From Nitrososphaeria archaeon (lineage in GTDB: Archaea > Thermoproteota > Nitrososphaeria > Geothermarchaeales > JDFR-13), in contig JALTTZ010000030.1 of the NCBI GenBank assembly GCA_027047855.1, positions 389 through 34,109 on the forward strand: DNA of 33,721 nucleotides. The letters run 5' to 3'. Position numbers and translations under genes: made by a program. The notes under the pieces were generated by a model, which did not search any database, was not told the DNA's origin, and worked only from the letters and a program-made list of their open reading frames with translations. Of this stretch, positions 4,199 through 16,488 are shown one piece after another; positions within the stretch are counted from its first letter, which is position 1, and each line of letters opens with the position of its first letter.

Positions 4199-5560
4199 AT
4201 GGACGAACTTTTTCATCAGATAGACCAATTTGTCTTGGATAGGCTGAGTGAAGGGAAACTGCCGGGCCTAAGTCTTGCTATCGTTAAAGACAATAAGGTT
4301 ATATATACTAGGGGATACGGGTTTAGCGATGTTTCAAACGCTCGTCAAGCCTTGAGTGATACTTTATATTGTATCGGGTCTATAACTAAGTCGTTTACGG
4401 CTTTGGCTATTATGCAGTTGGTTGAGGCTGGTAAATTGTCGCTTAAGGACCCAGTAGATAATTATCTTGACTATGTTCCAGACGTTTTCGAGAAAAATGT
4501 CACTATTCACCATCTGTTGACCCATTCATCGGGAGTGCCTGCTCTAGGTTATGCCGAGGCTTTTATTCGTGGGCTGGTGGGGCTTGATGATAAATGGCTA
4601 CCAGTTACCCAACCCATTGATGTTATGACTTTTATTGATGGAGCTAATGATTGGAGGGAGGCTGAACCCGGTGAGAAGTTCTTTTACTTGAACGAAGGGT
4701 ATGTTGCTTTGGGTATGATTATTAGCCGGGTTTCAGGAATGCCTTATGATGTGTACATCAAGAAGAATATCCTGGAGCCTCTCGGTATGAATAGAACCTA
4801 TATGGCTCCTGAAGATATAGAGCGAGATGGTGGTTTAGCTAAGCCGTATATACTGGGTGAGAATGGAGAGTTCCAGGAAGCAGGTTTTCCCTATGGTATA
4901 TATGCGGATGGAGGAATCGTTAGTAATGTTCTAGATATGGCCAAGTATCTCATGATGTATATTAACAAAGGAAGAACTAATGGTAAGAAAATAGTTGATG
5001 AGAAGAGTGTTGAGATGATGGAGACACCTTATATAGAGCTGCCCTATAAGGTGTTGGGGAAAGAAGCATATGGGTATGGACTGAAGGTCACTCAAGACTT
5101 TTACGGATTTAAGTTGGTTGATCACTCTGGCTCTATCTTGGTTCACACTGGGTATATGGGTTATGTTAGGGATAAAGGCGTTGGTGTTGTTTTATTAGCC
5201 AACGGGTCGGGGTATCCATTATCATTTATTGGGCAGTATATCCTAGCTATGTTGATCGATGAAGATCCAGAGGAGTTGCCGTTCATCTGGAAGGATAAGG
5301 TTCTTAGAAAGCTTGAAGGGACCTATCAATTGTATAAAGGTACGGTTAAGGCTGATGTTGAGAAGCGCGGGTCTCTCCTTTACCTTATTATGAAGGAAGG
5401 TGCGAGAAAGATTGAGACTCCCTTATTCCCACTCAAGCTGAGTTATGGTTATGCGATATTTAAGACCATAAGTTACTGGAGAGAATATACGGTGGAATTT
5501 AGAGTTAAGGAGGGATCTGTCGAATTTATATATGAGCGCTATAAGTTTAGGAAGATTTAG
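4199..5560 (+). CDS. beta-lactamase-fold serine hydrolase (class C/PBP4*-like)
   Basis: This 453-residue protein belongs to the serine beta-lactamase/penicillin-binding-protein-like family. The catalytic Ser61-x-x-Lys64 is in 'CIGSITKSFTALA', the Tyr163-x-Asn165 motif in 'FYLNEGYVALG', and the third motif is 'DHSGSILVHTG' (His309-Ser-Gly). The core fills residues 1 to about 345; the last 100 residues form a beta-rich tail domain often seen in this family. No signal peptide is visible, so it should act in the cytoplasm as an esterase, D-peptidase or amide hydrolase; the substrate cannot be read from sequence. Start ATG 4199 follows GAGGGGAT. It opens a plus-strand run that continues with two more hydrolase or transferase-like genes and then the glutamine-synthetase-like cluster, so a role on amides of that pathway is possible. 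Confidence 0.85.
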   Translation: MDELFHQIDQFVLDRLSEGKLPGLSLAIVKDNKVIYTRGYGFSDVSNARQALSDTLYCIGSITKSFTALAIMQLVEAGKLSLKDPVDNYLDYVPDVFEKNVTIHHLLTHSSGVPALGYAEAFIRGLVGLDDKWLPVTQPIDVMTFIDGANDWREAEPGEKFFYLNEGYVALGMIISRVSGMPYDVYIKKNILEPLGMNRTYMAPEDIERDGGLAKPYILGENGEFQEAGFPYGIYADGGIVSNVLDMAKYLMMYINKGRTNGKKIVDEKSVEMMETPYIELPYKVLGKEAYGYGLKVTQDFYGFKLVDHSGSILVHTGYMGYVRDKGVGVVLLANGSGYPLSFIGQYILAMLIDEDPEELPFIWKDKVLRKLEGTYQLYKGTVKADVEKRGSLLYLIMKEGARKIETPLFPLKLSYGYAIFKTISYWREYTVEFRVKEGSVEFIYERYKFRKI

Positions 5561-5650: not shown

Positions 5651-6493
5651 ATGTGTAGATTGTTGATCTCGGTAGGGAGGGTTAGGGATATCAGTAAATA
5701 TTATGAGGACTTGGTTAACAGCCTAATAAGAGCCTCTGAGTATGATCCACATAGCATAGCACTATTTGGGCCTGAAGATTATAGTCACAGGGATGGTTGG
5801 GGCCGTCTATTTATAAAGGTAGCTGAGGGTAATGTGAATGTTTTGGTGAGGAGAAGTACGAAACCTATATTTGTTGAACGTCCCCTGTTAAATATTGATG
5901 GTGATCTTGATTCGCTTTATGTAGATATTGTTCATTCAAGGGCTAGCAGTATAGGTATGCCTATAAACTTCTTTTCTATTCACCCCTTCGAATCTGAGAC
6001 GAGATGTGGTTATAAGTTGTATCTAGTTCATAATGGAGCTATGCATAAGGATATATTGTTGAAGAAGTTGGGGGTAGAGAAGGATAGTAGCTATGCGAAA
6101 CTGTATACAGATTCCTATTTTCTAGCTCAATATATCGGGGTCAATATATGCGACTCCATAACCCCTGATATTATTAAGGAGGTAGCTGGCTACGTTGATA
6201 CCGGGCTTAATCTAGGCATCGTATTGGTCACAGATTCCTATGTCGAGGTTATGGTTGGTAGTTACTACAGATATCTGGATAAGCCCAAAGAGATGCATGA
6301 TTTCTATAAGGTGTATAAATCCATTCTAAACGAAACTGCTATTTATGTTTCATCTACACTCGTAGACTTTGATGACTATAAGCCTAAACTACCTGTTGAT
6401 TGGAATGAGATTGAGAACGGAAAATATGATGTTTATAGAATTTGGTTCAAGGAAAATAAGTTGGAGCATATTAACAGCTTCATGGTCCGTTGA
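5651..6493 (+). CDS. class II glutamine amidotransferase-like Ntn hydrolase (YafJ/EgtC type)
   Basis: The ORF track starts at TTG 5642, but ATG 5651 is preferred: it gives Met-Cys at the N-terminus, the cysteine that becomes the nucleophile of class II (Ntn) amidotransferases after Met removal, and GGAG lies a few nt upstream. Family signs are 'DGWGRLF', 'HSRASSIGMPINFFSIHPF' and 'LYLVHNGAMHKD', matching the glutaminase domain of YafJ/EgtC-like proteins. At 280 residues there is only this domain and no synthase partner, so it is likely a stand-alone amidohydrolase. The best-known relative with such architecture, EgtC, hydrolyses a gamma-glutamyl amide in ergothioneine synthesis. With a glutamine-synthetase-like ligase 1.1 kb downstream, gamma-glutamyl amide hydrolysis is a plausible but unproven job. 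A TATA-like AAATTTAT at 5611 gives about a 10-nt leader. Confidence 0.8.
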   Translation: MCRLLISVGRVRDISKYYEDLVNSLIRASEYDPHSIALFGPEDYSHRDGWGRLFIKVAEGNVNVLVRRSTKPIFVERPLLNIDGDLDSLYVDIVHSRASSIGMPINFFSIHPFESETRCGYKLYLVHNGAMHKDILLKKLGVEKDSSYAKLYTDSYFLAQYIGVNICDSITPDIIKEVAGYVDTGLNLGIVLVTDSYVEVMVGSYYRYLDKPKEMHDFYKVYKSILNETAIYVSSTLVDFDDYKPKLPVDWNEIENGKYDVYRIWFKENKLEHINSFMVR

Positions 6494-6639: not shown

Positions 6640-7515
6640 ATGGCTGATGAAGGTATTAAATTCACGCTTCCAACAGAGATTCCCCTAGATATCTATCCTA
6701 GTCCTGAGGAATTTATAGCTGAGGCTAAGAAACTGGTCTCTGAGCTTGAGGAGTTGGGTGTACATATACGTGTTATGGGTGGATTGGGCATTTACCTTCT
6801 AATCGAGGGAACTGATTTATTGGAGAAATGGAGGAGTCTAAAGAGATTGGGTGCCCGTGTATTCACGGATATTGATTTTGCGGCATATGGGAAGGATCGG
6901 GATAAAATCCTTAATTTCCTAACTATGGAGCGGGATAATCATCTATATCTTGTTTATGAGCCTTCTCTGTATTTCTATGGTGGGCGTCGATATATATTTT
7001 ATGGCTCGCCTAAAGGAGGTAAAGTTAAGGGGAGAGATATTGCACGTATACCGATGGTGGAGTTCTTCTTCGATGAACTCCGGATGAACCATATAATCCC
7101 ATTCAAGGGTAGGTTGGAGTTAGGTAAATATTCATTGTCGCCAACTGATCTGCTATTATCAAAGCTTCAGATAGTTAAGATTAATGAGAAGGATATAAAA
7201 GATGTCCTTACTCTCTTCCTCGGGTTTGAAGTTGGGGATGGCGATAAAGATATGATAAATGGTCGGTATATCAGTAAGTTATTTGCTAATGACTGGGGCT
7301 TCTATTATACGGCGGTCAACAATTTATCCAAAGTTAAGGAATCGCTTTTGAATAAGTATGCTTCGGTGTTCGATGAAGGTGAACGCATGACTATTATCAG
7401 TAATATTGATCGACTTTTGAGGATGATTGAGGAGGAACCCAAGAGCTTTAAGTGGAAGTTAAGGGCTAAAGTTGGTCCAAAAAGAAAATGGTATAGTGAT
7501 GTTGATGAGTGGTGA
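6640..7515 (+). CDS. nucleotidyltransferase-fold protein (MNT/AbiEii-like)
   Basis: The pattern 'RVMGGLGIYLL' followed by 'RVFTDIDFAAYGK' is the Gly-Gly ... Asp-x-Asp signature of the polymerase-beta-type nucleotidyltransferase fold (Asp77, Asp79). Further on, 'SPTDLLLSKLQIVKINEKD' matches the helical region that carries a conserved Lys in AbiEii-like members, and 'ANDWGFYYTAVNNL' resembles the C-terminal part of a widespread uncharacterised subfamily. At 291 residues it is a single-domain protein without antitoxin partner beside it. Such enzymes transfer nucleotides to proteins, RNA or small molecules, or act as toxins. It sits 88 bp ahead of the glutamine-synthetase-like gene on the same strand; because bacterial glutamine synthetase is adenylylated by an unrelated-subfamily member of this fold, a modifying role is tempting but unproven. 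Confidence 0.7.
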   Translation: MADEGIKFTLPTEIPLDIYPSPEEFIAEAKKLVSELEELGVHIRVMGGLGIYLLIEGTDLLEKWRSLKRLGARVFTDIDFAAYGKDRDKILNFLTMERDNHLYLVYEPSLYFYGGRRYIFYGSPKGGKVKGRDIARIPMVEFFFDELRMNHIIPFKGRLELGKYSLSPTDLLLSKLQIVKINEKDIKDVLTLFLGFEVGDGDKDMINGRYISKLFANDWGFYYTAVNNLSKVKESLLNKYASVFDEGERMTIISNIDRLLRMIEEEPKSFKWKLRAKVGPKRKWYSDVDEW

Positions 7516-7603: not shown

Positions 7604-8953
7604 ATGCCGAGTCTGAATGAGATTTTGAGTATGGCTAGAGAAGCGGGTGTTAATAAACTTAGGCTCTTATACATTGATCTGGATAACGTTATAAGGGGTC
7701 ATGAAGCGATAGTCGATGCAGAGAAGTTGGAGGATGAGCTCCTCTCGGGTATGACTTATGCAGCCATTATGCAGTCGGGTTTCACATTGTTTGATACAGT
7801 GACCCCGGGTACAAAATTTGGGGCTCAAGGGGAAGTTAGGCTGGTGCCGGATTTAGATACTTTCCGTATTCTCCCATACAGTAGGAATACAGCGCAAGTT
7901 ATTGGAGACTTTTATACCCCTGACATGAAGCCGTTTGAGGTTGATCCTCGGCCATTACTTAAGAAAATGCTTGAAGAGATTGACTATGAGATCTGGATTG
8001 GTGTGGAGCCCGAGTTATACTTCTTCAAGGCAGATACACTACCCAAACTTGAACCTCTAGATAGACACCTCTGCTTCTCCACGCTTGGAATGAATATGGC
8101 TGAGTATGTTGTTAATGAGATAATGTCATATGCCAAAGAGATGGGTATAGATCTTCACCATTATTACCCTGAATATGGTAAAGGTCAGCATGAATTTTCC
8201 CTAAAGCCTTACCACCCGGTCAAAGCTGGTGATGCGTTAATCATGTTTAGGGAGTTGGTTAGGGCGGTCAGTAGAAAATATAATCTAATTGCTTCATTTA
8301 TGCCCAAACCAGCTACAAATATTCCTGGGAGTGGCATGCATATACATATTAGTCTGTGGAAGGATGGAGTTAATGTGTTCTATGATGAGAAGGATAAGTA
8401 TCTGTTGAGTGATACTGCATACTATTTCATAGGTGGCTTGCTCCACCATCTTGAACCCTTGATGGCTATAACAGCTGCAAGCGTTAATTCATATAAACGG
8501 TTGATACCGCATAATTGGGCATCTGCATTCAAGTGTTGGGGGCCGCAAAATAGGGAGGCCGCCGTAAGGATCCCCTTACCTGATAATAGAAATCCAAGTA
8601 AGTCATTTAATCTTGAGTTGAAATTTGTGGATGCTACTGCCCAACCATATTTGATGATAGGCAGTATTATAGCGGCCGGGTTAGATGGAATCAGGAGAAA
8701 ACTGGATCCAAGTGAACCATGTCTAGAAGACCCCTTCACATATTCTGAGGATGAGAGGAAAGCTAAGGGCTGGACTAGGTATCCAGAATTCCTGATAGAC
8801 GCCGTTAGGGCATTGGAGAATGATCAGTTTTTCAGGAAGGTCTGGGGAGATGTCTTGATAGATGAATACATAAAGATTAAGAAATATCACTGGTACTTGT
8901 ATCATAGTGAGGTCACCGAGTTTGAGAGGCGGTATCTACTGGAGGCTTATTGA
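7604..8953 (+). CDS. glutamine-synthetase-family amide ligase (gamma-glutamyl-amine ligase candidate)
   Basis: At 449 residues this has full GS-family length. The N-terminal beta-grasp element is 'LLYIDLDNVIRGHEAIV'. Catalytic landmarks are Glu135/Glu137 ('VEPELYFF'), Glu190-Gln195-Glu197 ('YYPEYGKGQHEFSL'), His246 ('GSGMHIHISLW'), 'NSYKRL' at 295, Arg317/Arg322 ('NREAAVRIP') and Glu338 ('LELKF'). Metal-binding residues are therefore kept and ATP-dependent gamma-glutamyl transfer is expected. Substrate-side positions differ from true GS: the usual Arg after the Glu338 strand is Lys340, the 'NPYL' motif reads 'QPYL', and the segment after NSYKRL reads 'IPHNWAS' instead of the usual 'PGYEAP'. 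Together with its neighbours (permease, aminotransferases, hydrolase) this suggests a PuuA-like ligase acting on an amine or amino acid instead of ammonia. Start ATG 7604 follows GGTGGGTTGGGAGG. First gene of the catabolic cluster. Confidence 0.85.
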   Translation: MPSLNEILSMAREAGVNKLRLLYIDLDNVIRGHEAIVDAEKLEDELLSGMTYAAIMQSGFTLFDTVTPGTKFGAQGEVRLVPDLDTFRILPYSRNTAQVIGDFYTPDMKPFEVDPRPLLKKMLEEIDYEIWIGVEPELYFFKADTLPKLEPLDRHLCFSTLGMNMAEYVVNEIMSYAKEMGIDLHHYYPEYGKGQHEFSLKPYHPVKAGDALIMFRELVRAVSRKYNLIASFMPKPATNIPGSGMHIHISLWKDGVNVFYDEKDKYLLSDTAYYFIGGLLHHLEPLMAITAASVNSYKRLIPHNWASAFKCWGPQNREAAVRIPLPDNRNPSKSFNLELKFVDATAQPYLMIGSIIAAGLDGIRRKLDPSEPCLEDPFTYSEDERKAKGWTRYPEFLIDAVRALENDQFFRKVWGDVLIDEYIKIKKYHWYLYHSEVTEFERRYLLEAY

Positions 8954-9855
8954 ATATGGTGGGAATATCTCTAGTCTTACTTAAGAGGACTCGGGAGATC
9001 CATAAATACTACAAGGACATGCCGTCACAGAGATCGGAGAGCTGTGGCCCTTATTCCCTAGCGCCAATATTGCTTGCATATGGATTTAAGACACATAACG
9101 GATATGAAATTGATGAGGACTACTTATCTATGTTAGCTCGCACCAGGCTTATGAAATATGAAGCCGAGGAACGTGAAAGGGTTTTGAGGGCTGTGGAGGA
9201 GGGTAAATTATCGCTTGGGGAGGCCCAACAAAAATATCACAAGATTCTCTATAAATATGAGTTGCCATACACCGATAAGGAAGTGGAGAGTGGGACGTCG
9301 GTGCAAGGCCTTATACATGCAGTTAAGGAGGTGTGCCAAGGAAAGCTAAAAACTATACCTATAGCATCTAGAAAAGGAAGAAGAATATTTTTTAGTAAGA
9401 GGAGATTTAGTAGGCTAGTTAGAACCTTAATTAATTTGGCTCGGGATACTGACTTCCAGATAATACTTAATCTGAGAACAACGCATTTAATTGATCCAAC
9501 TTCTCCCGAATATGGGTTTATGCCTCTGTTGCTCAGTTGGGCGGAACCTGAGAGTTTTAGATTATGGAATTGGGCGGTTGGACACTTCACCGGAGTAGCC
9601 GGGTTCCTTATATTTATGGATGGAGGTAAACGTGCTATTTACTTTATATTAAGGGATACTTATAAGCACTATGGTTTCAACGGTTATCATTTGCAACCTA
9701 TGGAGCATGTGAGGAGGGCTTTGATTAGGGGGGATGGTAGGGAAGGCGGTATCCTATTGATAGTTCCAGAGGAGAATTACGAGAAAGTTCGTAATGCAAT
9801 AGAGTCTATTGATGGGCTGGTGATTAGCGATTGGGATAATGGCTCCCTATTCTAG
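8950..9855 (+). CDS. C39/papain-like cysteine hydrolase
   Basis: The TTG start overlaps the stop of the GS-like gene (TTGA), with GGAGG 4 nt upstream; an ATG at 8956 is the alternative. I see the order Gln27-Cys32 ('PSQRSESCGPYSLAPILLAYG'-type block), His212 ('WAVGHFTGVAGFL') and Asp236 ('YFILRDTYKHYGF'), which is the oxyanion Gln, Cys, His, Asp order of papain-fold C39-like peptidases, plus a 'GTSVQGLIHAVKEV' segment typical of that group. Residues about 60-110 form a charged helical insertion. No signal peptide or membrane segment is present, so it acts inside the cell. Strict translational coupling to the ligase suggests it hydrolyses the amide made by it, or a related isopeptide or gamma-glutamyl bond. 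A transglutaminase- or peptidase-like role is the alternative. Family assignment is by motif only. Confidence 0.65.
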   Translation: MNMVGISLVLLKRTREIHKYYKDMPSQRSESCGPYSLAPILLAYGFKTHNGYEIDEDYLSMLARTRLMKYEAEERERVLRAVEEGKLSLGEAQQKYHKILYKYELPYTDKEVESGTSVQGLIHAVKEVCQGKLKTIPIASRKGRRIFFSKRRFSRLVRTLINLARDTDFQIILNLRTTHLIDPTSPEYGFMPLLLSWAEPESFRLWNWAVGHFTGVAGFLIFMDGGKRAIYFILRDTYKHYGFNGYHLQPMEHVRRALIRGDGREGGILLIVPEENYEKVRNAIESIDGLVISDWDNGSLF

Positions 9856-9921: not shown

Positions 9922-11268
9922 ATGAGCGGAGATTTTCCAGATCTATTCTCTCTTCTTGAGCGAGAAAGGAAAGTAACTGGTTCTACAGTGTATATACGTT
10001 TCTATCCAATGATTATCAAGAGGATGGAGGGAGTCTATGTCTGGGATGTTAAGGATAGGCGTTATCTAGATTTTAATGCCTCGTGGGCGGTGGCTAACGT
10101 TGGGCATTCTCATCCGAGGGTAATAGAAAAGGTTTCCGATCAGCTCAAGAAATTCATTTCCGCTTCTTATACAACATTTCCATATGTTGAGGCCATCGAG
10201 TATGTTGAGAGGATACGGGGGGTTTCGAGTGTGTCGGAAGGTAAAAAGGCTGTGTTCGGGCATTCTGGGTCTGATATTAATGATGGAGTCTATAAGTTGC
10301 TTTTGCTGGTTACTGGGAGGGAAAGAATGGTTTCATTTATAGGGGCTTATCATGGGCAGACGCTTGGCTCTTACTCAGTCTCTGGGCATAAGGCTCAAGC
10401 TATGCTGTCTCCATATAAGGAGGTAATTAAAGTTCCATATCCATATTGTTATCGGTGTCTCTGGGGACTTAGATATCCGGGATGTAACTTGAAGTGTGTT
10501 AAGTATATTGAATATTTGTTAGACACTGTTTATCCTGGCGACACATTCGCCGGGGTCTTTGTAGAGCCGGTACAGAGTGACGGTGGTGATGTTGTTCCCC
10601 CTCCAGATTTCCATAGAAAACTTTTCCAAGTTATCAAGAAATATGATTTGGCCTATGTGATGGATGAAGTTAAGGTTGGATTCGGTAGAACTGGGAAGTT
10701 CTTTGCATCAGATACTTTTGGGGTAAAGCCAGATATAATAACGATGGGTAAACCGATGGCTTCGGGATTCCCATTAAGTATGGCGTTAATGCGTGAAGAT
10801 ATAGCTGACAAGTATGAAGGGACTCATTTGTTTACATTATCCCCTAATCCAGTCAGTATAGCAGCAGCCCATGCAACACTCGATGTTATTTTGGATAATG
10901 ACTTAGCAGATAATGCAGCTTCAATGGGAGATTATCTGCTTAGATCCCTGAAAGAAGTTATGGCTAATCATGATTTAATTGGTGATGTTCGAGGAAAGGG
11001 CCTTATATTAGGAATTGAGTTGGTTATGGACAGGGAATCGAAGGCCCCAGCCTCAGCTGAGACTGCTAAGGCGGTGTATAGAATGTGGGAACTGGGTTTA
11101 TTAACTGCCTATACCGGGATGCATTCAAATGTCATTGAGTTAACCCCTCCCCTTATAATTAATAGAGAGCATGTGGATGAAGCAGTTAATCTGATAGATA
11201 AAGCGATTGATGATGTCGAACATGGTCGGGTACCAGATGAGAAGGTGAGAATGTTCGCGGGATGGTAG
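9922..11268 (+). CDS. class III PLP-dependent aminotransferase (or racemase), copy 1
   Basis: 448 residues, normal length for the class III (GABA/ornithine/acetylornithine) fold. The PLP lysine is Lys277 ('ITMGKPMASG') and the pyridine-nitrogen aspartate Asp248 is in 'MDEVKVGFGRTGKFF'. 'GAYHGQT' and 'FVEPVQSDGGDV' are further family blocks. Two departures stand out: the usual 'GSEAxE' phosphate-binding block reads 'GSDINDG', and the common Gln of 'DEVQ' is Lys251. A four-Cys cluster CX2CX8CX3C (Cys176-Cys192, 'CYRCLWGLRYPGCNLKC') is shared with copy 2. Archaeal members include 4-aminobutyrate aminotransferases and broad amino acid racemases, so the reaction is open. It would suit conversion of an amine or gamma-glutamyl-amine to an aldehyde within the cluster. 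Confidence 0.85.
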   Translation: MSGDFPDLFSLLERERKVTGSTVYIRFYPMIIKRMEGVYVWDVKDRRYLDFNASWAVANVGHSHPRVIEKVSDQLKKFISASYTTFPYVEAIEYVERIRGVSSVSEGKKAVFGHSGSDINDGVYKLLLLVTGRERMVSFIGAYHGQTLGSYSVSGHKAQAMLSPYKEVIKVPYPYCYRCLWGLRYPGCNLKCVKYIEYLLDTVYPGDTFAGVFVEPVQSDGGDVVPPPDFHRKLFQVIKKYDLAYVMDEVKVGFGRTGKFFASDTFGVKPDIITMGKPMASGFPLSMALMREDIADKYEGTHLFTLSPNPVSIAAAHATLDVILDNDLADNAASMGDYLLRSLKEVMANHDLIGDVRGKGLILGIELVMDRESKAPASAETAKAVYRMWELGLLTAYTGMHSNVIELTPPLIINREHVDEAVNLIDKAIDDVEHGRVPDEKVRMFAGW

Positions 11269-11411: not shown

Positions 11412-13052
11412 ATGGGCGAGGAGGAGGTTGTTTTCGTTAGGAGGGCCTCTGGACTTATCAAGGAAATCGGTCCTTGGACTGTTATGACTATAGGATTAGC
11501 GTACGTGATTGCCGACGGAATATATAACCTAACGGAGTGGCAGCTGTATGAGACGCCGGGTGCTAATTATCCCCTCTCATTGATCCTAGGCTTCGTGATG
11601 CTGGCGTTTGCAGCTTTCTCAGTAGTATTCCTAACGATAGCGATGCCGCGAACAGCCTCTGATTATGTGGCTATATCTAGGGTGTTACATCCGCTTCTTG
11701 GATATATAGAGGCTATCCTTTCATGGGGTTGTCATGTCTGGATCGTCGGTGCACTAGCCTATTTCCAGGGATGGTACTGGGGGAGCTTCCTCATCCAAGC
11801 TGGCTACGCACTTCACAATCAAGCATGGGTCTCTCTTGGAGAGTGGATGTCTAGCTCTGTAGAGGTTGGAATAGGCCTAGGAATCCTTATCATAGTGATA
11901 TTCACTATAACTAATCTGCTTGGTATTAGGGTGTTTAAATACTTGGTTAACTTCCTGGTGGCTGTAGCTATAATTGGTGGAGTAGTAACCATCGGAGTTG
12001 GGCTATGGGGACTATTGATGGGCCCGGGAGCGGTCAAAAATCTATGGGACGCCACCTACGGAGCGGGGGCATATGATGAGATAGTGCGTGTCGCTACGCA
12101 AAATGGATGGGCCGACTATATTGCTGGAGCTACTGGAAGTGCAGATGTTTGGGGTTGGCCTGGTGGTTGGAGTTGGAGTGCAACTCTGGCAGCCGTGGTT
12201 GCTGCTGCATATGCTTTCTGGGGAATGGAGTTCTCTAACTACTTGGCGGGAGAGGTATCTAGACCCAAGAAATCCTTCTTATATGGTGTAACTGGTGCAA
12301 TGATATTCATATTGATATACTACCTCTTAATTGCAGTGCCGACTCTCTTCGTATTCGGAAAATTCAATTCATTCTATAACTATGTAATGTATGGCGGTCA
12401 TGGAGCCGACCAATTGTCTATTAACCCTGTGCAGACTCCTACACTTGCAGTAATGCTGGCTTCTCTAGTCGGTGGAGTTGCACCGTGGGCAGCAGTTATA
12501 ATTACTTTTACCGTCGCAATATGGGTATTGAACGGCCTCCCTGTATACATGATAATTCCTTCAAGGATCACATTTGCATTAGCATTCGATAGATTCGCAC
12601 CCAAGTTCCTAGCAGACGTAAATAGGAGATTCAGCACTCCACACTGGTCTATATTACTGACCGCAGTAGCATCAGCACTTCTTGTATTCCTAGCTGCAGT
12701 TAATCCATGGATATATGCTATCAGTGTGGTCACCATGGTTATTGTTAGGTGGTTATTAGCTTCATGGGCTGCTATGCTACTGCCATACTTCAGGCCTAGG
12801 GCGTTCGAGAGCGGCTTCACAGGTAAAATAGGTGGAATACCCATAGTGACTATAGTCGGTTTTATAGGCGGTGTGGCAATGACTTGGTTATTAACCACTG
12901 CCATCGGTGAGGTTGCCAGCGATCCGATATCCTTCTGGTGGTTCGTTGGTTGGATTGTGTTCGCAATGCTTGCATTCATAGGTTACGCTGCATACAACAA
13001 GTCCAAGGGTGTTGATGTGGAGAAGATATTTAAGGAGGTTCCGCCTGCATAG
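11412..13052 (+). CDS. APC-superfamily amino acid/amine permease
   Basis: 546 residues with about 12 hydrophobic membrane spans. The N-terminal 'LIKEIGPWTVMTIGLAYVIA' and the central 'YAFWGMEFSNYLAGEVSRPK' are the TM1 and TM6-7 hallmarks of the amino acid-polyamine-organocation family, where the unwound helices bind substrate. It should import an amino acid or amine across the cytoplasmic membrane by cation symport or exchange; substrate cannot be told. The start ATG 11412 follows GGTGATTAT, and a TATA-like AAAATATTTATT at about 11345-11356 suggests its own promoter with a leader near 35 nt. It lies between the first aminotransferase and the metallophosphoesterase, just as PuuP-type permeases sit in bacterial polyamine clusters. 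An internal minus-strand ORF (12398-12979) is a shadow. Confidence 0.9.
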   Translation: MGEEEVVFVRRASGLIKEIGPWTVMTIGLAYVIADGIYNLTEWQLYETPGANYPLSLILGFVMLAFAAFSVVFLTIAMPRTASDYVAISRVLHPLLGYIEAILSWGCHVWIVGALAYFQGWYWGSFLIQAGYALHNQAWVSLGEWMSSSVEVGIGLGILIIVIFTITNLLGIRVFKYLVNFLVAVAIIGGVVTIGVGLWGLLMGPGAVKNLWDATYGAGAYDEIVRVATQNGWADYIAGATGSADVWGWPGGWSWSATLAAVVAAAYAFWGMEFSNYLAGEVSRPKKSFLYGVTGAMIFILIYYLLIAVPTLFVFGKFNSFYNYVMYGGHGADQLSINPVQTPTLAVMLASLVGGVAPWAAVIITFTVAIWVLNGLPVYMIIPSRITFALAFDRFAPKFLADVNRRFSTPHWSILLTAVASALLVFLAAVNPWIYAISVVTMVIVRWLLASWAAMLLPYFRPRAFESGFTGKIGGIPIVTIVGFIGGVAMTWLLTTAIGEVASDPISFWWFVGWIVFAMLAFIGYAAYNKSKGVDVEKIFKEVPPA

Positions 13053-13067: not shown

Positions 13068-14012
13068 ATGGATACATTAAGATTGATGTACGTCGCTGAT
13101 GCTCATGGAAATGAGCTCATTATCAGAAAAGCTGTGGGAGCTTGCAGAGAACATAAAGTAGATGTACTTATCATAGGCGGCGATTTAACAGGAAAAGTCA
13201 TAGTGCCCATAATTGACAAAGGAGATAAGTATGAGGCTTCATTCCGCGGAAACAAGTTTACGGCTAAATCCAAGGAGGACTTAGAAAGGGTCATGAATGA
13301 GATTAGGTTTAGGGCTGCTTATCCAGTGGTACTCTCGCAAGATGAGGTTCAGGAAATTAAGGAGGACCCAGCTAAGTTGGATAGGCTGTTTAAGGATGTA
13401 ACTATAGAGGAAACTAGACACTTAATCGGTGTTTTGGAGGAAATTGTCGGGGATATAGTTACTATAATGACCCCAGGAAACGATGATATATTTGAGATTG
13501 ACGATGTTCTCAAACAGTCCAATAAAATTATTTATCCATTGGAGAGGGTCGTTGAGCTTCCATTGGGCTATCAAGTAATTAGCATGGATTATACGACGGA
13601 AACCCCTTGGAACACGCCTAGAGAGGTTAGTGACTCGAAGCTTTGGAAGAAGCTTGAGAAAGAGGCTAATAGAGTATCTGTCGCATGGAATAAGGTGATA
13701 TGTAATTTCCATGAGCCGCCATATGGAACAACTATAGATTTGGCTCCAAAGCTCGATGAAAATCTGCAGCCGGTCTATAAACTAGGTGAATTGGAGACTC
13801 AGCATGTTGGAAGTAAATCGGTATATAAGTTCATGGAGAAATATCAGCCATTATTGGGTCTTCATGGCCATATCCATGAATCGCCTGGATATGATCGGAT
13901 TAAGAGGACGCTTGTCTTCAATCCAGGGTCTGAATATCAGTACGGAGAGTTGAAGGCATTGATCATTGATCTTGATAGAGATGGCATATCTAATTGGTTT
14001 AAGATAGGTTAA
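13068..14012 (+). CDS. calcineurin-like metallophosphoesterase
   Basis: The metal-binding blocks of this superfamily appear in order: Asp11-x-His13 ('VADAHGNE'), 'IIGGDLTGK' (Asp39), 'MTPGNDDIFEI' (Asn, with Asp where many have His), 'NFHEPP' and 'LHGHIHESPG'. About 100 residues between the second and third blocks form a charged helical insertion. At 314 residues it is a stand-alone soluble enzyme that should cleave a phosphomonoester or phosphodiester using two metal ions; the substrate is unknown. It starts 15 nt after the permease stop with AGGGAAG before its ATG and is followed by aminotransferase 2, so it is part of the operon, although no phosphate step is obvious in the inferred pathway. 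Confidence 0.85.
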   Translation: MDTLRLMYVADAHGNELIIRKAVGACREHKVDVLIIGGDLTGKVIVPIIDKGDKYEASFRGNKFTAKSKEDLERVMNEIRFRAAYPVVLSQDEVQEIKEDPAKLDRLFKDVTIEETRHLIGVLEEIVGDIVTIMTPGNDDIFEIDDVLKQSNKIIYPLERVVELPLGYQVISMDYTTETPWNTPREVSDSKLWKKLEKEANRVSVAWNKVICNFHEPPYGTTIDLAPKLDENLQPVYKLGELETQHVGSKSVYKFMEKYQPLLGLHGHIHESPGYDRIKRTLVFNPGSEYQYGELKALIIDLDRDGISNWFKIG

Positions 14013-14067: not shown

Positions 14068-15456
14068 TTGAAAATTGATTTGAAAACACTGCATTTTGAT
14101 AATGCACCTAAGATCATTACTGATGTACCTGGTCCTAAATCTAGACAGATTTTAGGTCTCCAGAGAAGCTATGAGGGATCTGCCGTCACCTACTCTAGGG
14201 GTATCCCCGTCGCTATTGAGGAGGCTAAGGGGGCTACTCTGAGAGATGTTGATGGAAATGTGTATATAGATTTCTTTGGTGGCGCCGCTGTAGTATCTGC
14301 TGGGCATTCGAATCCATATATTCTAGAGGCTATTAGAAAGCAGGAAGCTAGGCTGATTCACACGCTTGACTTAGCGACCTCGGTAAGAGAGGAATTAGTT
14401 AGGAGGCTTGTTTCCCTTGCTCCAGGTGATTTGAAAGATAATGCTAAGGTTATTTTTGGAGGGCCTACCGGATCGGATGCTGTGGAAGCGGCAGTAAAGT
14501 TAGTTAAATACTATACTAAACGGCATATAATGATTTCGTTCGAGGGTGCTTATCACGGAATGACGGGGACTGCTCTTGCTTTAACTGGAGATACATTTTT
14601 CAAGGAGGCATATATGCCACTGGGTCAGCCTGTCCAATTTGTACCTTATGCTTATTGCTATAGATGTGCCTTCGGCCTTAACTATCCGGGGTGTGGGTTA
14701 GCGTGCTTAAAATATATTGATCATATTCTCGAGGACCCCGCTTCAGGTGTGTGTGACGTCGCTGGGGTTATTGTAGAGCCTATTCAAGGTGAGGGAGGGA
14801 GTATAGTTCCTCCTGAGGAGTTTATTAAAGGATTAAGGGAAGTTGCAGATAAGCATAGTGTCCCCTTGATCATAGATGAGGTTCAGTCTGGGTTAGGTAG
14901 GACCGGCAAACTTTTTGCTTGTGAACTTTATGGGGTTACCCCAGATGTTATGACAATGTCAAAGGCTTTAGGTGGCGGAATCGGGTTTCCTCTTTCAGGC
15001 ATTATGTATAAGAAGGAGATGGATGTATGGAGGCCGGGGGCTCATATTGGGACATTCAGGGGTTTTCTCCCTGCTATGGCTGGTGGATTGGCCTATCTCG
15101 AGTTCTTGGAGGAAAATAATATTCTTGAACATGTGTCTAATCTTGGGAAATACATGTTAAAACGTCTAGGTGAGATTGAGGATCAGAGTCGACTTGTGGG
15201 GGAAGTGAGGGGCCGCGGACTTATGTTGGGTGTGGAATTGGTTAAGGATAGGCGAAGTAGGGAGCCGGCGCCAGATTTGGCGAAGGAGCTCAGAAAAGAG
15301 TGTGTAAAACGGGGGCTTATTATAGAGATTGGTGGGCATTTCCATAATGTGGCTAGGTTTTTACCACCATTGGTATTGACTGTGGATTTGGCTGAGAAAG
15401 GTCTTAGTATTTTTAAGGAAGCTCTAAGAACTGTAGAGAAAAGATATTTTGATTAG
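14068..15456 (+). CDS. class III PLP-dependent aminotransferase (GABA-aminotransferase type), copy 2
   Basis: 462 residues with all canonical blocks: 'GPTGSDAVEAAVKLV' (phosphate binding), 'GAYHGMTGTALALTG', 'IVEPIQGEGG', Asp270 in 'IIDEVQSGLGRTGK' and the PLP lysine Lys299 in 'MTMSKALGGGIGFPL'. It closely resembles archaeal 4-aminobutyrate aminotransferases, although homologues include amino acid racemases. The same CX2CX8CX3C cluster as copy 1 occurs at Cys197-Cys213. The start is TTG 14068, supported by AGGTGAT seven nt upstream, the strongest ribosome binding site in this cluster. The presence of two paralogues suggests two successive transaminations, as SpuC-type plus GABA-type enzymes do in bacterial putrescine breakdown, but this is inference. 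It lies 10 bp before the alcohol dehydrogenase. Confidence 0.88.
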   Translation: MKIDLKTLHFDNAPKIITDVPGPKSRQILGLQRSYEGSAVTYSRGIPVAIEEAKGATLRDVDGNVYIDFFGGAAVVSAGHSNPYILEAIRKQEARLIHTLDLATSVREELVRRLVSLAPGDLKDNAKVIFGGPTGSDAVEAAVKLVKYYTKRHIMISFEGAYHGMTGTALALTGDTFFKEAYMPLGQPVQFVPYAYCYRCAFGLNYPGCGLACLKYIDHILEDPASGVCDVAGVIVEPIQGEGGSIVPPEEFIKGLREVADKHSVPLIIDEVQSGLGRTGKLFACELYGVTPDVMTMSKALGGGIGFPLSGIMYKKEMDVWRPGAHIGTFRGFLPAMAGGLAYLEFLEENNILEHVSNLGKYMLKRLGEIEDQSRLVGEVRGRGLMLGVELVKDRRSREPAPDLAKELRKECVKRGLIIEIGGHFHNVARFLPPLVLTVDLAEKGLSIFKEALRTVEKRYFD

Positions 15457-15465
15457 GGATCCATT

Positions 15466-16488
15466 ATGCCGATTAGAGCATTGTATAGTTACAAGAAGGG
15501 TTTATATATGGATGAATATTCCGTTCCTGAACCGGGTTCCGGGGAGGTGCTTGTTAGACTAAAATACGCTGGTTTATGTGCCTCGGATCTACATTATATG
15601 GATGGTCGGTTTAAATATGGTATAGAACCGATTGTCCCGGGTCATGAGGGAAGTGGTGTAGTGGAGGGTGTAGGAGATGGTGTAAAAAGTGTTTCGGAGG
15701 GTGATAATGTAGTAATAGACTATGTACGGAGTTGCGGTGTTTGTAGATACTGTGTAGCGGGCTATGAAAATCGGTGTGGGGAGGCTTTTTATCATGGATT
15801 TGAGGCCCATGGAACCTTCCAGGAATATATTATAGTTCCATAGAGGAGTGTAGTTAAGGTACCTAGTAATCTTTCATTGGTCGAGGCTTCTATTTTGGGT
15901 TGTGCTGTTGTGACTCCTTATCATGCCATTAGGGAGATTGGTGGTGTGTGGGGTAAGTCTGTGGCTATAGTGGGTCTGGGTGGAGTAGGGCTACATGCTG
16001 TGTTATTATCCAGAGTTTTGGGAGCCAAGTACATTGCAGGATTTGATATTGATGAGAGGAAGGAAGACATTGCATATGATTTTGGTGCGGATCTATTTCT
16101 TAATTTGAGTGATTTGGAGGCTATTAATAGGGTGGTCGGCGATTTAGGAGGTGGATTTGATATAGTTTTTGAGTATGTTGGTTTGCCTGATACCGTTGCC
16201 CTCGCTATTAATCTTGTGGGGAAGGGAGGAGCTATAGTTGTGGGTGGTTTGATAAATCAATCCTTTGAGATTGATTTCTCGGAGATAATGTCGGGTGAGA
16301 AGAGGATTTATGGGTTTGAGGATCATACGCATAGAGATCTAGTAGAACTGGTGGACCTTATCCAGCGAATGGGTATCTCCCTAGATAAATCAATATCCCA
16401 TAGATTTCCATTATCTAGATTGGAAGACGCTGTTAATTTACTTAGAAATAAAAGTGAATTGGTTAAGAGGATAGTTCTCGAGATATAG
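15466..16488 (+). pseudogene. zinc-dependent medium-chain alcohol dehydrogenase interrupted by one in-frame TAG
   Basis: Two track ORFs (15466-15843 and 15877-16488) are in the same frame and together give one full-length dehydrogenase of 340 codons. The first half has the catalytic-zinc ligands ('GLCASDLH', 'GHEGSGVV') and the structural-zinc cluster 'CGVCRYCVAGYENRC'. The second half has 'GCAVVTPYHA' and the NAD(P) loop 'GLGGVGLHAVLL'. They are split only by TAG at 15841-15843, where homologues usually read 'VP(E/A)R'; one G-to-T change (GAG to TAG) would make it. The rest of the frame is intact, so the mutation is recent, an assembly error, or read through. TAG is a common ordinary stop in this window, which argues against pyrrolysine. 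If active it would interconvert an alcohol and aldehyde at the end of the cluster. Confidence 0.85.

Follow-up and report, generated by a model that had tools for sequence, protein, structure and literature searches.

The DUF6885 family (Pfam PF21819), which has no assigned function, is predicted to comprise papain-fold proteins, and its genes accompany glutamine synthetase (GS)-family ligase genes in four archaeal lineages. Both the fold class and the pairing with GS are firm. The member analyzed here is encoded in a 33,721-nucleotide stretch of DNA from a Nitrososphaeria archaeon (the whole stretch is referred to as the window), and we propose that it may be a cysteine γ-glutamyl-amide hydrolase working with the GS ligase in amine use (probability roughly 0.5). 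A sequence-only reading of the window had suggested a make-and-break pair formed by a C39 or papain-like hydrolase and an amide ligase. The make-and-break idea was retained as the best reading and the outline of the proposal, fold and ligase pairing, held; the C39 label was dropped.

The open reading frame is real and, as had been claimed, overlaps the ligase stop by four bases: its TTG start lies in TTGA, which is shared with the end of the GS gene (Table 1). An in-frame ATG at position 8956 (residue 3 in the TTG-based numbering used here) is an alternative start. Since both candidates lie downstream of a possible ribosome-binding site, 4 nt (TTG) and 10 nt (ATG) from it, either codon may be the true start. 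The protein is soluble, again in agreement with the earlier claim.

Table 1. Features of the DUF6885 gene and its surroundings, in positions of the window
Feature	Position	Strand	Basis or remark
EgtC-like class II glutamine amidotransferase fold protein	5651..6493	+	Starts Met-Cys
Nucleotidyltransferase-like protein	6640..7515	+	No Pfam match; label read from sequence
GS-family ligase, predicted γ-glutamyl-amine ligase	7604..8953	+	Gln-synt_C E 2.8e-94, active-site alignment
GGAGG, possible ribosome-binding site for DUF6885	8941..8945	+	Sequence
DUF6885 (PF21819) papain-fold protein, 301 aa	8950..9855	+	Pfam, AF2 models, 16-homologue alignment
Gln27 codon, predicted oxyanion-hole Gln	9028..9030	+	Invariant in 16 homologues
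Cys32 codon, predicted nucleophile, start of helix 32-43	9043..9045	+	Invariant; model secondary structure
His212 codon, predicted general base, start of strand 211-224	9583..9585	+	Invariant in GH[FY] motif; model
Asp236 codon, predicted third residue of the triad, behind strand 227-235	9655..9657	+	R[DE][ST]Y motif; model
Class III aminotransferase	9922..11268	+	Kept in Aigarchaeota-type and most haloarchaeal clusters
APC-family amino acid/amine permease	11412..13052	+	Kept in most clusters
Calcineurin-like metallophosphoesterase	13068..14012	+	49-55% identity to Aigarchaeota-type cluster copies
Second class III aminotransferase, diaminobutyrate transaminase-like	14068..15456	+	

The window protein matched PF21819 over the full length of the profile (3-251 of 251; E 5.5e-50; 170.3 bits against a 27-bit cut-off) and differs from the family in nothing. 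It had no NCBIfam match, no PHROG family of note and no significant relative in a PDB sequence search, and our literature search found no paper naming DUF6885. The family is rare. Profile searches detected it in none of 60 relatives of the window's genome and, at E <= 0.001, in 12 of the 398 genomes from the phylum (the window's own counted; one is a fragment below the cut-off); in one haloarchaeal class, 3 of the 294 genomes had a match above the cut-off. A contig scan, which was pattern-limited and was escaped by two haloarchaeal members found by other routes, detected carriers in Haladaptatus, Saliphagus, Wolframiiraptor, Geocrenenecus, related Aigarchaeota or Nitrososphaerales bins and Methanomethylicales. 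No bacterial member was met in the pattern-limited genome scan, which also overlooked haloarchaeal members, or in 14 control genomes; no viral or phage relatives were found, and plasmid members were limited to two Haladaptatus records. In Candidatus Geocrenenecus huangii, the GS-DUF6885 cluster is present in two copies (L020, L024).

AlphaFold2 was used to model the window protein (pLDDT 89.5, pTM 0.89) and a shorter Methanomethylicales homologue (pLDDT 88.3, pTM 0.89). In both models the Cys opens the central (first long) helix, and the His and the Asp/Glu lie on two consecutive strands, in papain order. In the window model, H212 begins one strand and D236 lies just after the next. The top Foldseek match of both was the Nostoc phytochelatin synthase Alr0975 (E 2.9e-5 and 6.1e-5, probability 1.00), with moderate TM-scores of about 0.4-0.6 for its chains. 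It was followed by cathepsins and bleomycin hydrolase for the window model, and by staphopain and ComA C39 domains for the Methanomethylicales model. Two confident models with papain-fold matches at probability 1.00 thus bore out the papain-like fold suggested earlier. A search of a viral fold library gave weak papain-like or lysin matches only. Phytochelatin synthase, staphopain, C39 and BtrH have been classified in one group (PMC10318531), and the models make it a safe statement that DUF6885 has a papain fold near this group.

Membership in C39 itself (PF03412/PF13529) was rejected: no C39 profile matched at E <= 1 in Pfam or NCBIfam, and phytochelatin synthase (C83) ranked higher in both models. 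A role as a C39-type peptidase, whether in peptide cleavage or in proteolytic control of the partner GS, is therefore very unlikely for DUF6885, although ComA C39 domains matched the Methanomethylicales model, and that model only (TMt 0.67-0.73, at ranks 6-8). The window protein is a single-domain protein with neither an ABC exporter nor a double-glycine precursor beside it; its neighbors are the GS, aminotransferases and a permease.

The residues proposed to be catalytic, Gln27, Cys32, His212 and Asp236, are present in the protein at these positions and were followed in an alignment of 16 DUF6885 homologues from four lineages. The first three were unvarying (16/16), as the sequence-only reading required. 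Position 236 was not: it is D in six homologues (window and haloarchaea) and E in ten (Aigarchaeota-type archaea and Methanomethylicales), a conservative change flanked by invariant R235 and Y238 in the motif R-[DE]-[ST]-Y. In all 16, the Gln, Cys, His and Asp/Glu follow each other in the papain-like sequence order of clan CA. Chance does not explain this set, because the protein matches the Pfam family at E 5.5e-50 and the residues take papain-like places in two models. Gln27, which we take to be the counterpart of papain Gln19, would contribute the oxyanion hole, while His212 would act as the base, assisted by Asp/Glu236. Gln27 also corresponds to Gln64 of Alr0975, the role of which has been described (PMC3855540). 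An invariant Arg (R264) was considered as the match of Alr0975 Arg232 and dropped, the register being ambiguous by two residues.

The partner GS has a full catalytic domain (Gln-synt_C). Like all DUF6885-linked GS proteins, it is without the FDGSSI Asp of the ammonium site and without the flap Glu, and carries Trp at the flap; four GlnA rows of the alignment (L065, L066, L069, L070) retained the FDGSSI Asp and the GYEAP flap Glu. Loss of these ammonium-site acidic residues marks GS homologues that glutamylate amines (PMC6478659), and for one haloarchaeal GS homologue, Haloferax mediterranei GlnA-2, glutamate-putrescine ligase activity has been demonstrated (PMC8394153). The partner is thus predicted from its residues to be a PuuA-type γ-glutamyl-amine ligase, in line with the amide ligase originally proposed, and the pairing is tight. 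Its best NCBIfam model was GGputSyn (γ-glutamylputrescine synthetase) with 424.7 bits; this is well under the equivalog cut-off of 650, so the amine substrate is not fixed.

Of 17 DUF6885 loci, 16 have a GS gene immediately upstream, and the last one has it elsewhere in the cluster. DUF6885 was always found inside a GS cluster in the three other lineages (haloarchaea, Aigarchaeota-type archaea and Methanomethylicales), so the pair is not a single oddity. GS and DUF6885 trees concurred on the main split, window plus haloarchaea versus Aigarchaeota-type archaea plus Methanomethylicales, with the window DUF6885 on a long branch. Most DUF6885 loci contain an APC permease, and class III aminotransferases occur in the window, in the Aigarchaeota-type loci and in most haloarchaeal loci. 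Haloarchaeal clusters have additional M20 and, mostly, Amidohydro_2 genes; Aigarchaeota-type clusters have a γ-glutamyltranspeptidase (GGT)-family protein without obvious signal peptide and the metallophosphoesterase of the window; the Methanomethylicales loci have only permease, GS and DUF6885 in common with the other clusters. In genome G598, a four-gene PotABCD-like ABC transporter adjoins DUF6885-M20; its best NCBIfam models were spermidine/putrescine subunits, all under the equivalog cut-offs.

Several further genes were recorded around the pair. The EgtC-like protein, itself a candidate for another γ-glutamyl hydrolase, recurs beside non-ammonia GS genes (L067:57-959 and L084:11592-12278), and the nucleotidyltransferase-like protein recurs beside GS clusters in three lineages (L019-L024, L082:7751-8602). 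Upstream of the cluster, positions 4199-5560 encode a beta-lactamase-fold serine hydrolase with a Pab87 octamerisation domain. A zinc alcohol dehydrogenase gene (15466-16488) is intact except for one in-frame TAG at 15841-15843 (VP*RSVVK), which may reflect mutation, sequencing error or recoding. The sole aldehyde dehydrogenase (ALDH; PF00171) found in the window's genome, which is 75% complete, lies outside the cluster, so that the pathway is incomplete on paper.

For comparison we took 17 GS genes that belong to the same two clades of the tree but lack DUF6885. Directly behind the GS, an Amidohydro_2 gene was found in 15 of these sister operons (thirteen from family f29, one from G254 and that of the second GS gene in Haladaptatus caseinilyticus). 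Of the remaining two, G369 has an EgtC-like gene, orthologous to that of the window, beside its GS, and the haloarchaeal siderophore cluster L029 has neither. Amidohydro_2 and DUF6885 were never seen together directly behind one GS, and four GlnA genes had neither; DUF6885 was not found in the eight sister-GS genomes searched. Fungal FluG combines an amidohydrolase and a γ-glutamyl ligase in one fusion protein (PMC6478659), and in Streptomyces the amidohydrolase SCO6961 and the polyamine ligase SCO6962 carry consecutive gene numbers (PMC9397018). With these precedents, the Amidohydro_2 genes of the sister operons indicate that DUF6885 occupies a slot otherwise held by amide hydrolases. Furthermore, 16 of the 17 genomes tested, among them 14 of the 15 DUF6885 carriers, gave no full-length PuuD match; other C26 matches covered about half of the PuuD profile or less, and many lay in frames of CTP or GMP synthase length. 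As separate observations, archaeal family f29 (L080-L085, L050-L064) always has Amidohydro_2 behind a non-ammonia GS, a split version of fungal FluG, and the non-ammonia GS of L029 (L029:6001-7341) lies within an IucA/IucC siderophore cluster.

In the reading we favor, the GS ligase would join glutamate through its γ-carboxyl group to an amine imported by the adjoining transporter, a polyamine-like compound being the best guess. Substrates of the class III aminotransferases would be the protected amine or a product formed from it. DUF6885 would cut the γ-glutamyl amide through a Cys32 thioester, returning glutamate, and would thus be functionally equivalent, without being orthologous, to PuuD and to the amidohydrolases beside other such ligases. 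The analysis establishes the fold class, the conservation of the catalytic set, the pairing with its place in the operon and, by residues, the type of ligase; that the substrate is a γ-glutamyl amide, that it is hydrolyzed and not transferred, and in which order the steps occur is what we infer. The broader view, that DUF6885 is a new class of papain-fold γ-glutamyl-amide hydrolase which forms with GS the core of an archaeal amine γ-glutamylation pathway and replaces PuuD- and FluG-type hydrolases, has in our judgment about even odds.

Counting against a hydrolase role are the other candidate γ-glutamyl hydrolases in the clusters: GGT in the Aigarchaeota-type, M20 and Amidohydro_2 in the haloarchaeal and the EgtC-like protein in the window. 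Moreover, the activity of the slot-filling Amidohydro_2 is itself not known (PMC6478659). The gap in the pathway noted above, the lack of a significant profile link to phytochelatin synthase and the different bond which that enzyme cleaves also weigh against this role. With second cutting candidates in several clusters, DUF6885 might instead transfer an acyl group or free the amine before the ligase acts. If it were an acyltransferase (transpeptidase) like phytochelatin synthase or BtrH, DUF6885 would form a thioester from the γ-glutamyl compound made by GS and hand the acyl moiety on to a different amine or peptide, thereby building a γ-glutamyl product; in some clusters, the breaking step would then fall to the separate hydrolase candidates GGT and M20. 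The nearest fold, phytochelatin synthase, is indeed a dipeptidyl transferase with hydrolase activity (PMC3855540), and BtrH_N acyltransferases are near C39, in the group that also contains phytochelatin synthase (PMC10318531). However, the slot is taken by amidohydrolases elsewhere, and the permease and aminotransferase context looks catabolic, which makes transfer a rather doubtful alternative.

The other alternative places DUF6885 upstream of the ligase step, where it would hydrolyze an imported N-acyl amine or small peptide and leave the amine to be glutamylated by GS, comparable to the amidohydrolase half of FluG. The authors of the FluG study suggested the amidohydrolase product as a possible substrate of the ligase half (PMC6478659), and several clusters have a separate γ-glutamyl hydrolase candidate. 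In the Methanomethylicales loci, however, DUF6885 is the only γ-glutamyl-breaking candidate recognized, and we consider this order of steps unlikely.

If cleavage of γ-glutamyl amides is indeed its role, a Pfam family without function would gain a job, and archaeal amine utilization, of which the ligase step has been shown in H. mediterranei (PMC8394153), would gain a candidate for its γ-glutamyl-cleaving step. It would also add one more fold to the enzymes recruited beside γ-glutamyl-amine ligases, as part of a pair that is small and soluble.

Among known enzymes, Alr0975 (C83, PF05023) resembles DUF6885 in its papain fold, in the order of Gln, Cys, His and acid and in acting on γ-glutamyl compounds, as is proposed for DUF6885. 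Phytochelatin synthase cleaves a Cys-Gly bond, not the γ-glutamyl bond. Identity in the fold alignments was 7-13%, and the window protein had no PF05023 match in Pfam. With hhalign, the probability was 0.2-0.7%, not significant, for a two-sequence phytochelatin synthase alignment of Alr0975 and an Arabidopsis sequence; the latter matched PDB Alr0975 at 1.7e-33. DUF6885 has Q-x4-C where phytochelatin synthase has Q-x5-C, and differs further by Asp or Glu as third residue, by the GS partner and by no thiol or metal link being seen. Alr0975 forms a γ-Glu-Cys acyl-enzyme (2bu3 title; PMC3855540). C39 peptidases share the papain-like core, but DUF6885 has no exporter fusion or link, is larger and has inserted helices. 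PuuD, the γ-Glu-GABA hydrolase of the Puu pathway (PF07722), has the role proposed here, a Cys nucleophile and an adjoining PuuA-type ligase and APC permease, but its fold, that of a class I glutamine amidotransferase, is unrelated. Finally, FluG and SCO6961/SCO6962-type pairs likewise couple a hydrolase tightly to a non-ammonia GS; there the hydrolase is a metal-dependent TIM-barrel amidohydrolase, whereas DUF6885 is a predicted cysteine enzyme.
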